DNA of 64,000 bases from Kribbella pratensis (GTDB lineage Bacteria > Actinomycetota > Actinomycetes > Propionibacteriales > Kribbellaceae): NCBI RefSeq assembly GCF_004365355.1, contig NZ_SODP01000001.1, positions 372,001 to 436,000 on the forward strand, in the 5' to 3' direction. Of this stretch, positions 5,163 to 9,458 are shown piece by piece. The translations under genes were made by a program, and so were the position numbers. The stretch's first letter is position 1; each line of letters starts with the position of its first letter. The notes beneath the pieces were generated by a model. That model did no database searches. It was not told where the DNA came from and was given only the letters and a program-made list of their open reading frames with translations.

Positions 5163-5927
5163 TCAGTTGGTTGGTTCGCGGTAGCCGAGGGCGGCCGAGA
5201 TCTTCCGGGCGGCCTCGATCGCGGCCGGGGCCATCAGAGCCACCTGGGCGATCGACTGCTCCAGCGACAGCGTGGAGATGCTGACGGCGGCGACGGCCGC
5301 GCCGGTGTGGTCGTGGATGACGGCGGCCACACAGCGGATGCCGGGCTCGTTCTCCTCGTCGTCGAGCGCGTAGCCACGGGCGCGCACCTGCGCGAGATCG
5401 GCCTTGAGCGCGGCCGCGGTGGTGTGCGTGAGCGGCGTACGCGCCGGCAGACCTGTTCGGGTGATGTGGACGTCGAGCTCCTCTTCGTCCTTCTCCGCAA
5501 GAAGCGCCTTGCCGATGCCGGTGCAGTGCAGCCAGATCGCCTTGCCGACGCGCGACGGCATCCGGTACGGCTTCGGGCCGTCGAGACGGGCGACATAGAT
5601 CGCCTCGTCGCCGTTCAGCAGCCCGACGTGCACCGTGCAGCGCGTCTGCGCGACGAGGTCCGCCAGGACCGGGCGGGCGACGGTGGCCAGGTCGACGTTG
5701 GTCAACGCGTGACCGGCCAGCCGCAGCGCCTTCGGGCCCGGGTGGTACGACCCGTCGTCGGCCTGCGTGACGAACTCGTGCTCGACCAGCGACGCCATGA
5801 TCCGATGCACGGTCGACTTGGCCAGCCCGGTCGCGTTCACCACGTCGGTGAACCGCGAGTGCTCCAGTACGGCGTCCAGCACCATCAACGTCTTGTCGAT
5901 GGCCGAGGGCGAACTCATGTCGCTCAT
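5163..5927 (-). CDS. IclR family regulator, KdgR-like
   Basis: A 254-residue IclR-family protein. The N-terminal winged helix spans roughly residues 8-65 (DVVNATGLAKSTVHRIMASL is the HTH) and the C-terminal GAF-like effector domain fills the rest. The stop of kduD lies 24 bases upstream and the strand is the same, so it closes a kduI-kduD-iclR operon. KdgR-type IclR proteins control pectin/uronate catabolism and respond to 2-keto-3-deoxygluconate; that role is inferred here from the neighbours. The ATG at 5927 has GGAGAGGAG 7 bases before it. Confidence 0.88.
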   Translation of the reverse strand: MSDMSSPSAIDKTLMVLDAVLEHSRFTDVVNATGLAKSTVHRIMASLVEHEFVTQADDGSYHPGPKALRLAGHALTNVDLATVARPVLADLVAQTRCTVHVGLLNGDEAIYVARLDGPKPYRMPSRVGKAIWLHCTGIGKALLAEKDEEELDVHITRTGLPARTPLTHTTAAALKADLAQVRARGYALDDEENEPGIRCVAAVIHDHTGAAVAAVSISTLSLEQSIAQVALMAPAAIEAARKISAALGYREPTN

Positions 5928-5950: not shown

Positions 5951-6703
5951 TTATCTGGCCAGCCAGCCGCCGTCGACGGCGAGAACGTGGCCGTTGACGT
6001 AGTCGGCCGCCGTGGAAGCGAGGAACACCGCCGCGCCGACGACGTCCTCAGGCCGTCCCCAGCGACCGGCCGGGATGCGCTGCCGGATCGCGGCCTCACG
6101 GGCCGGGTCCGCGCGCAGCTCGGTGGTGTTGTCGGTACTGATGTACCCGGGCGCGATCGCGTTGACCTGCACACCGGCCGGACCCCACTCGTTGGCCAGC
6201 GCCCGGGTCAGTCCCGCCACCGCATGCTTGCTGGCAGTGTAGGCCGGAACCGAGATCCCACCCTGGAAGCTCAGCAGCGAGGCGACCGTGATGATCTTCC
6301 CGGTACTGCGTTCGGCCATCGCGGCCCCGATCGGCCGGGTGACTGCCCAGGTGGAGTTGAGGTTGACGTCGATCACGTGCTGCCAGTCCGCGGTCGTCGT
6401 CTCGGCCGCCGGCGTGCGCCGGATCGTACCGGCGTTGTTGACCAGGATGTCGATCGTGCGTTCCCTGGCCAGCCCGGCAGCGGTCGCTTCGACCGCGGCA
6501 GGATCCGCGAAATCGGCGATCACCACGCTCGCCTCGCCGCCGCCGTTCTGCTTGATCGCCTCGAGAGTGTCCTCGAGCGCCGCGTCCCGCGCCATCAGGA
6601 TCAGCTCGGCGCCGGCCGCGGCGTACCCCGCTGCGATGGCGGCGCCGATGCCGCGACGCGCGCCGGTGACGAGCGCAGTACGCCCCTCGAGGCTGAACGT
6701 CAC
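5951..6703 (-). CDS. kduD: 2-dehydro-3-deoxy-D-gluconate 5-dehydrogenase (KduD), SDR family
   Basis: A 250-residue classical short-chain dehydrogenase with cofactor motif GARRGIG (14-20), NNAG (89-92) and a catalytic Ser142-Tyr155-Lys159 set (YTASK). KduD reduces 3-deoxy-D-glycero-2,5-hexodiulosonate to 2-keto-3-deoxygluconate, the step after KduI in the breakdown of unsaturated uronates from pectin. The start is a GTG at 6703 that overlaps the kduI stop (GTGA); a longer reading to 6928 would overlap kduI extensively. The length matches KduD proteins closely. The specific name rests mainly on the kduI neighbour, since SDR sequences alone are ambiguous. Confidence 0.85.
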   Translation of the reverse strand: MTFSLEGRTALVTGARRGIGAAIAAGYAAAGAELILMARDAALEDTLEAIKQNGGGEASVVIADFADPAAVEATAAGLARERTIDILVNNAGTIRRTPAAETTTADWQHVIDVNLNSTWAVTRPIGAAMAERSTGKIITVASLLSFQGGISVPAYTASKHAVAGLTRALANEWGPAGVQVNAIAPGYISTDNTTELRADPAREAAIRQRIPAGRWGRPEDVVGAAVFLASTAADYVNGHVLAVDGGWLAR

Positions 6704-7524
6704 CGCAGGTCCTGTACGTCGACACCGTCCATGTCGCCGAATGCCTGGTTCTCGCCGGCCATCGCCCAGACGAAGCTGTACGACGACGTCCCGCAGCCGG
6801 AGTGGATCGACCAGCTCGGCGAGATGATCGCCTGCCGATCCGCGACCAGCACATGCCGGGTCTCGTCGGGTTCGCCGAGGAGGTGGACGATCCGCTCGGT
6901 CTCGGGCAGACCGAAGTACAGATAGCACTCGGTACGGCGGTCGTGGGTGTGGGCGGGCATGGTGTTCCAGGTGCTGCCTGCGTGCAGTGTCGTCACGCCG
7001 AGCACGACCTGGCAGCTCTGGACGCCGTCCGCGTGGATGTACTGGTCGATGGTGCGACGGTTCGCGGTCTGCTGATCGCCGAGCTCGAGCCGATTGCCTT
7101 CACCGGGGTTGACCTGTGCGGTCGGGAAGGCGGTATGCGCGGGCGCGGAGAAGAGGTAGAACGCCGCATCAGGCCCCTCGAAGACGACCTCGCGTACGCC
7201 GCGTCCGACGTACAGGCAGGCGCCGGTGGTCAGCTCGTACTTCGTGCCGTCCGCGGTGACCGTGCCGGGGCCGCCGACGTTGACGATGCCGGCTTCGCGG
7301 CGTTCGAGGAAGTACTCGCTGCGCAGCTGTGGATATGTCTCCAACGTCAGGGGCCCGTTCGTGGGGCGGGCGCCGGCGAGCACGATCCGGTCGTGGTGGG
7401 TGAGCACCGCGGTGATCGCGTCCGGGACGAAGAGGTCGTCCACCAGATAGTGGCGGCGCAGCGCGGCGGTGTCGAAACCGGGCAGCTGCTCGGGATGGGT
7501 GGCGTGCCTGATCTGCAGAGTCAC
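6700..7524 (-). CDS. kduI: 5-dehydro-4-deoxy-D-glucuronate isomerase (KduI)
   Basis: A 274-residue cupin-type isomerase, matching the roughly 276-280 residues usual for KduI. The metal-site block MPAHTHDRRTECYLYF (near residues 187-202) with its two histidines and glutamate, and a further histidine in SWSIHSGCG, are characteristic. The enzyme interconverts 5-keto-4-deoxyuronate and 3-deoxy-D-glycero-2,5-hexodiulosonate in the cytosol during pectin and alginate-type polyuronate use. It heads the operon kduI-kduD-iclR. The promoter region at 7525-7672 carries palindromes that fit IclR control. Confidence 0.93.
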   Translation of the reverse strand: MTLQIRHATHPEQLPGFDTAALRRHYLVDDLFVPDAITAVLTHHDRIVLAGARPTNGPLTLETYPQLRSEYFLERREAGIVNVGGPGTVTADGTKYELTTGACLYVGRGVREVVFEGPDAAFYLFSAPAHTAFPTAQVNPGEGNRLELGDQQTANRRTIDQYIHADGVQSCQVVLGVTTLHAGSTWNTMPAHTHDRRTECYLYFGLPETERIVHLLGEPDETRHVLVADRQAIISPSWSIHSGCGTSSYSFVWAMAGENQAFGDMDGVDVQDLR

Positions 7525-7532
7525 AGAACTAG

Positions 7533-7635
7533 GTTCTATATAACGGAACCACTATGTCAATCGTCGAACCGTTGCAACGCGACGCGGAATGTTCCATGTT
7601 CCGTGTCTTGACACTGAGTTCTGGTCCACGGAACC
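7533..7635. promoter_or_regulatory. Divergent kdu promoter region with three palindromic candidate IclR/KdgR operators
   Basis: Three palindromes share the same 9-base gap. Site 1 (7533-7550) is GTTC-N9-GAAC and site 3 (7618-7635) is GTTC-N9-GAAC. The two 18-mers agree at GTTCT and at ACGGAACC. Site 2 (7585-7603) is CGGAA-N9-TTCCG. Site 1 lies between a minus-strand -35 TTGACA (complement of 7555-7560) and the kduI start. Site 3 overlaps the expected -10 of a plus-strand promoter with -35 TTGACA (7608-7613). One regulator, most likely the IclR protein at 5163-5927, could therefore control both directions. Confidence 0.65.
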
Positions 7636-7672
7636 TTCCAGTCAATCGCCCATCGCCCCTGGGAGGATCCTG

Positions 7673-8083
7673 ATGACCACTCTGGACTGGACGCTCCTGG
7701 TCGCGTACTTCGTGTTGATGGTGCTGATCGGGCTCCGGTCGCGCACCAAGATCAAGACCGTCGTCGACCTGGTCGCCGCGACGATGGGGCCGATCGCGAT
7801 CCCGCTGATGCTCGGCCTGCTGCCGTGGTTCCGGCGGAGCGGACTGCGCGCCGCGCTGGCATCGTGGGCGATCGGCCTGATCGCGTGGGCGATCGTCAAG
7901 TACGGCGCCGGCTCCACCGACCAGACCGTGGTCGTTGCGTTGCCGCTGGCAACTTCCTTGGTCGTGTACATCGGCCTCGGCGTGCTCCTGCCGGAGAACC
8001 GCTCGGAGGTCGACGACCTGGTCGACTCGCTCAACACCGACCCGGACGAGACCGCCGCCCGCCCCGCCGCGGTCCTGTCCTGA
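7673..8083 (+). CDS. Remnant of a sodium:solute symporter (SSS family) with a large in-frame internal deletion
   Basis: A 136-residue membrane protein. The first 30 residues (LDWTLLVAYFVLMVLIGLRS) look like transmembrane helix 1 of an SSS-family symporter. From about residue 36 the sequence (ATMGPIAIPLMLGLLPWF, GLRAALASWAIGLIAWAIV) looks like the late helices and C-terminus of the same family. Full SSS transporters have about 500 residues, so some 350 in the middle are missing while the frame is kept. The ATG has GGGAGGA 5 bases before it, and its promoter region is shared with kduI. An intact symporter here would have imported uronates; this product probably cannot transport. Confidence 0.65.
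   Translation: MTTLDWTLLVAYFVLMVLIGLRSRTKIKTVVDLVAATMGPIAIPLMLGLLPWFRRSGLRAALASWAIGLIAWAIVKYGAGSTDQTVVVALPLATSLVVYIGLGVLLPENRSEVDDLVDSLNTDPDETAARPAAVLS

Positions 8084-8121: not shown

Positions 8122-9458
<1,337 letters not shown>

Follow-up and report, generated by a model that had tools for sequence, protein, structure and literature searches.

The 136-residue frame at positions 7673..8083 (+) of the 64,000-nt stretch of Kribbella pratensis DNA analysed in this study, hereafter called the window, is what an in-frame deletion has left of a 500-aa sodium:solute symporter. In all likelihood it records a recent 1092-bp deletion in a uronate-type importer of the SSS family, an instance of ordinary gene decay that has left a non-functional stub. 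The middle three quarters of the gene have gone, most likely through slippage between short repeats, and many relatives lost it by routes of their own; the short protein is therefore very probably what remains of a dead gene, rather than a small protein newly arisen. The lesion is a real internal deletion in a known kind of transporter, and by itself it is ordinary. Automatic annotation could misread the scar of such a deletion as a small membrane protein. The 37 syntenic loci compared here document one importer that was lost many times while the catabolic enzymes and the promoter stayed in place, and the set is usable for studying how often, and by which lesions, dispensable importers decay. 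A literature search, with most subscription journals outside its reach, found nothing on this locus.

An internal deletion at a short direct repeat

The frame runs uninterrupted from ATG to TGA. K. rubisoli, the nearest relative among those compared, carries an intact syntenic gene (L033:3831-5333; 1503 nt, 500 aa), and with reference to this gene the remnant consists of residues 1-32 joined to residues 397-500. The retained 5' part (7673..7768, +; codons 1-32) is identical to K. rubisoli nt 1-96 at 92 of 96 positions and includes the first helix, residues 3-24 in a predicted model of the intact protein. K. rubisoli nt 1174-1503 agree with the window frame at 310 of 330 positions, the two matches overlapping by 15 nt at the deletion junction, and the retained 3' part (7769..8080, +; codons 397-500) comprises the tail and the three final helices, of which the foremost is trimmed at its start. 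What is missing amounts to 1092 nt, or 364 codons, in frame. The alignment therefore bears out the original prediction that first-helix and last-helices signatures of the SSS family are joined in one frame; its figure of about 350 missing residues compares with the 364 found. The DNA adjoining the gap is 93% identical to K. rubisoli on either side (3770 and 554 columns), dropping to 90% further downstream.

The junction (7754..7768, +) is occupied by a single copy of the 15-bp repeat AAGACCGTCGTCGAC, which matches both K. rubisoli nt 82-96 and nt 1174-1188 at 14 of 15 positions, so that the proposed alignment to a full-length sister gene places the deletion ends on a direct repeat. The two K. 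rubisoli copies, which bound the sequence absent from the window, read AAGACCGTCGTGGAC (nt 82) and AAGATCGTCGTCGAC (nt 1174) and agree with each other at 13 of 15 positions. Among the 15-mer pairs lying at least 200 nt apart in the K. rubisoli gene, 23 reach at least 13/15, two of them 14; in the K. kalugense gene (G013), 11 such pairs reach 13/15, and the two repeat copies, agreeing at 14/15, are the only pair that does so. Since about 0.8 million such pairs are possible by our arithmetic, a junction on this particular pair is unlikely to be a coincidence. Slippage or recombination between the 15-bp copies is most likely the origin of the deletion, and a single internal event of 1092 bp between the two near-identical stretches would have removed codons 33-396. 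Because the copies share their reading frame, each encoding K-x-V-V-D, the in-frame outcome needs no selection for frame. Deletions at short direct repeats are a known kind of lesion in decaying bacterial genes; the window shares with them one clean gap located on a near-repeat of 15 bp, and differs in that its deletion, as it happens, preserves the frame. Elsewhere in the genus, deletion ends overlap by 13 bp at G018 and by 6 bp at one G034 deletion, and no such overlap was found for the G016 and G035 deletions.

A junction lying on a repeat might also point to an assembly or sequencing error in a strain whose gene is in truth intact. However, the locus is internal to a 3.46-Mb contig of the 8.37-Mb genome, a repeat of 15 bp would not by itself make an assembly collapse, and the intact protein, used as query against the genome, recovered none of the missing sequence, its best full-length match elsewhere being a paralogue only 26% identical, which makes an artefact hardly credible.

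The residual protein and tests of selection

The family of the remnant is assigned via its intact relatives, since the 136-aa protein itself gave no match up to E = 10 against Pfam and NCBIfam. The intact orthologue matches PF00474 (SSF; 6e-31, over the cut-off), TIGR00813 (8e-34, yet below the curated cut-off) and PDB 5nv9 (9e-21). Its predicted model (pLDDT 81, pTM 0.81) aligns best with 5nva (TM 0.80/0.85), in keeping with SiaT (5nv9/5nva) as the nearest solved structure of the SSS family (TC 2.A.21; PF00474). In comparison with this family the window protein lacks residues 33-396, and since the Pfam SSF domain extends over residues 33-432 of the intact protein, the deletion has taken away roughly nine tenths of that domain. 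Likewise, 132 of the 163 columns that are invariant in 76 intact homologues fall within the deleted part; this set was drawn from 80 loci, narrowed to 78 that match from residue 1 and then to 76 of 470-540 aa, with L085 (545 aa, for its length only) and the broken L037, L043 and L044 left out of the counts. In the numbering of the intact model, from which the helices were taken, those left are 3-24, 389-411 (trimmed at its start), 422-442 and 448-469, and the window protein itself displays four hydrophobic segments.

Homology and synteny with full-length SSS genes establish the descent of the remnant, and the extensive loss, as judged against the intact orthologue in the syntenic position, is what one expects of a pseudogene. 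It shows neither the PF00474 match over the core helices expected of a functional SSS protein nor the LeuT-type inverted-repeat core, residues 33-396 being gone together with the sodium and substrate sites that we take to lie there. The product would be a four-helix stub lacking the transporter core and would be unable to act as a symporter. The predicted model of the 136-aa protein is weak (pLDDT 74, pTM 0.56) and can only serve as a rough guide, since its input alignment placed window residues 10-30 in the wrong columns; fold comparison of this model returned no matches at E <= 0.001, a vSGLT chain turning up at E = 9.4. Five further SSF genes over the Pfam cut-off are harbored in the window genome, and no close paralogue able to fill in was found there.

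Selection on the retained codons was estimated from ten of the 13 taxa in the tree. On the window branch dN/dS was 0.168 against a background of 0.098 (p = 0.33) and lay below 1 (p = 0.003), a value in between those of two intact branches, K. rubisoli (0.049) and K. jiaozuonensis (L034; 0.232). The retained part is less constrained than the deleted part even when the gene is intact (background dN/dS 0.098 vs 0.038), and on the same branch the neighbouring genes are under strong constraint, with 0.013 (kduI), 0.079 (the kduD-like gene), 0.005 (IclR) and 0.038 (a gene that we presume to be asd). Relaxed selection on the remnant finds no support in the likelihood model, which gives no significant rise over background, although counting by eye, with eight amino-acid changes on the window branch and about one on that of K. 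rubisoli, had suggested relaxation. As relaxation did not emerge, the deletion is probably recent. The low dN/dS of the branch fits a late deletion, and it equally fits a constrained product.

Such a product would be a four-helix membrane protein, repurposed for instance as a regulator or partner of another transporter and held under selection. The open frame with its conserved start and ribosome site, the branch dN/dS below 1 and the four hydrophobic segments agree with this reading, as does an independent in-frame form of 90 aa in G005, but that form retains different segments (two hydrophobic stretches), and among the 32 other Kribbella genomes that gave a match, in which it had been looked for, the 136-aa form did not occur. 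The weak model without a match at the threshold above also speaks against repurposing, as does W22R, which replaces a residue that is aromatic in 76/76 intact homologues; S422L, in turn, alters a position that is P, S or A in 76/76. An excess of in-frame alleles, another possible sign of selection, is not evident and was set aside: in two of the 10 disrupted alleles the symporter frame stays uninterrupted from its start codon all the way through the 3' part, as compared with about a third expected of single random deletions, and ten alleles are too few for a test. We therefore regard a repurposed protein as unlikely. The original prediction had left the choice between a fresh deletion and a small membrane protein that now does something else. 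Our data favour the deletion, as the short form is unique among the 33 genomes with a match, the sister gene is intact and decay is common, and the open frame and the low dN/dS are all that speaks for the second option.

A native family of small proteins was also considered and rejected, there being no orthologue of the same length in the 32 genus genomes or among the best 80 of 121 loci, of which 77 encode 496-545 aa and three are broken genus genes; no native 136-aa homologues unrelated to SSS were found. More distant homologues in G003 and G010 are 40-44% identical, with open frames of 306-607 aa.

Repeated loss of the symporter across Kribbella

Some match to the window protein was detected in 33 of the 38 genus genomes and kduI in 37 of them, G023, which has neither kduI nor a symporter match, standing outside the 37 kduI loci. 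At these loci the symporter is intact in 23, disrupted in 10 and absent in four (G008, G009, G025 and G036). The disrupted genes comprise the two in-frame short forms, those of the window (G000; 136 aa) and of G005 (90 aa, through a different deletion), and eight that are otherwise broken (G015, G016, G018, G024, G026, G033, G034 and G035). In a tree built from IclR, kduD and kduI, genomes that lost the gene are interspersed with genomes that have it intact, and G035 and G036 are the only sister pair in which both members lack a working symporter. Counting by eye on this tree, with gain excluded, gave 13 lost branches, and with G024, G026 and G033, which share an insert at the same place, counted once, the tally comes to at least 11 separate losses, a number to be read with the reservation that several nodes are weakly supported and that allele replacement by recombination would alter it. 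The three insert-bearing genes may represent one event spread by recombination. The window deletion is best explained as one case of this repeated symporter decay in Kribbella.

The same record of at least 11 losses, set beside a kduI kept in 37 of 38 genomes, could mean that in some niches selection promotes loss of the importer, with the enzymes maintained for another source of substrate. This would be compatible with the decay of the window gene described above, but recurrent loss of a dispensable niche gene yields an identical pattern, and we consider selected loss conceivable though rather doubtful. An extended version, in which selection has repeatedly removed the importer of the kdu locus and the window and G005 keep a translated stub with a new dominant or regulatory role, appears very improbable.

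Several lesions at these loci are worth recording in their own right. The shared insert of roughly 200 nt (L162:2910-3112 in G024) occupies the same place in the broken symporters of G026, where it is cut short, and G033. It is a dispersed repeat of the genus, with a match in 9 of the 38 genomes (E <= 0.001), including 14 places in G031 and five in G021. Its 3' end resembles the right end of IS605/TnpB elements; none of the longest frames beside three copies of the insert (L194, L196 and L198) was recognised by eye as TnpB-like, and an Rfam search of nine of the loci gave no match. The G024 gene (L162) additionally harbors, at nt 157, a MITE-like insert, about 165 nt long and bounded by the inverted ends GGGTGGGGCTGATGGTCCA, and small scars are found at this place in G026 and G033. 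In G016 (L120, L171), the frameshifted symporter frame continues in frame into the tautomerase gene, displaying an open frame of 466 aa.

Neighbouring genes, probable substrate and promoter

On the opposite strand of the window lies kduI, encoding 5-dehydro-4-deoxy-D-glucuronate isomerase (6700..7524, -; NF002091, 396 bits with a cut-off of 250). It is accompanied by a frame (5951..6928, -), conserved here in 37/37 kduI loci, whose residues after FSLEGRT form an SDR dehydrogenase that we take to be kduD-like, and by an IclR-family regulator (5163..5927, -) recognised with Pfam and NCBIfam, whose NCBIfam matches include KdgR, below the cut-off. Of the 121 loci that matched, the best 80 were analysed; 65 of these (L048-L112) come from other genera, and kduI and an IclR regulator stand beside the symporter in 18 of these 65, which belong to Planobispora, Actinoplanes, Catenuloplanes, Sphaerisporangium and Planomonospora; 14 of the 18 also have a kduD-like gene and 16 a tautomerase. 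The other 47, from Streptomyces, Umezawaea, Lentzea, Nocardia and Amycolatopsis, show no kduI in the stretch compared and at most a distant SDR (28-32%) or IclR (34%) gene.

For alginate users, SSF proteins have been put forward as putative transporters of uronates (PMC13274419), and a Vibrio pectin-oligomer cluster combines a sodium symporter with kduI and kduD (PMC6537148). In view of these precedents and of its kduI and IclR neighbours, the intact Kribbella symporter is probably a uronate importer. Its likeness to the ToaA-type SSF uronate transporters, SSS proteins proposed for uronate uptake (PMC13274419), is one of neighbourhood alone, with kduI, the kduD-like gene and the IclR gene beside the symporter.

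The divergent promoter region shared by kduI and the symporter gene (7525..7672) was aligned in 19 of the 37 loci, 11 with intact and 8 with broken symporters. In these loci the GGGAGG ribosome site and an upstream TTGACA are conserved, which agrees with the good ribosome site initially described, and two paired sites, GGTTCTA-N6-GGAACC near kduI and GTTCTG...GGAACC near the symporter, are retained with a degree of variation and may be IclR operators. The earlier view that the gene keeps a regulated promoter thus stands for the retention of the paired sites across the 19 aligned loci, with the part of the regulator being putative. The region lies upstream of kduI in one direction and, across the symporter gene, upstream of the tautomerase gene in the other, and the tautomerase may well be read from it. 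Since the promoter also serves kduI and presumably the tautomerase, its conservation needs no working symporter product, and service to the divergent and the downstream gene would be what keeps it in place.

The tautomerase-family gene (8122..8307, +) is intact, encodes 61 aa and has its own ribosome site; it matches Pfam Tautomerase over the cut-off, and the NCBIfam tautomerase models below theirs. A full 61-aa frame is present in the window and in all eight otherwise broken loci, and residues 1-60 are matched in G005 and G008. Among the loci without a symporter, kduI directly adjoins the tautomerase gene in G008, and no tautomerase was found within the 6-kb stretch in G009, G025 and G036. 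The reverse of the usual pattern was observed in G007 (L185), where the symporter is intact and the tautomerase is broken after about 10 residues, in a frame of 39 aa.
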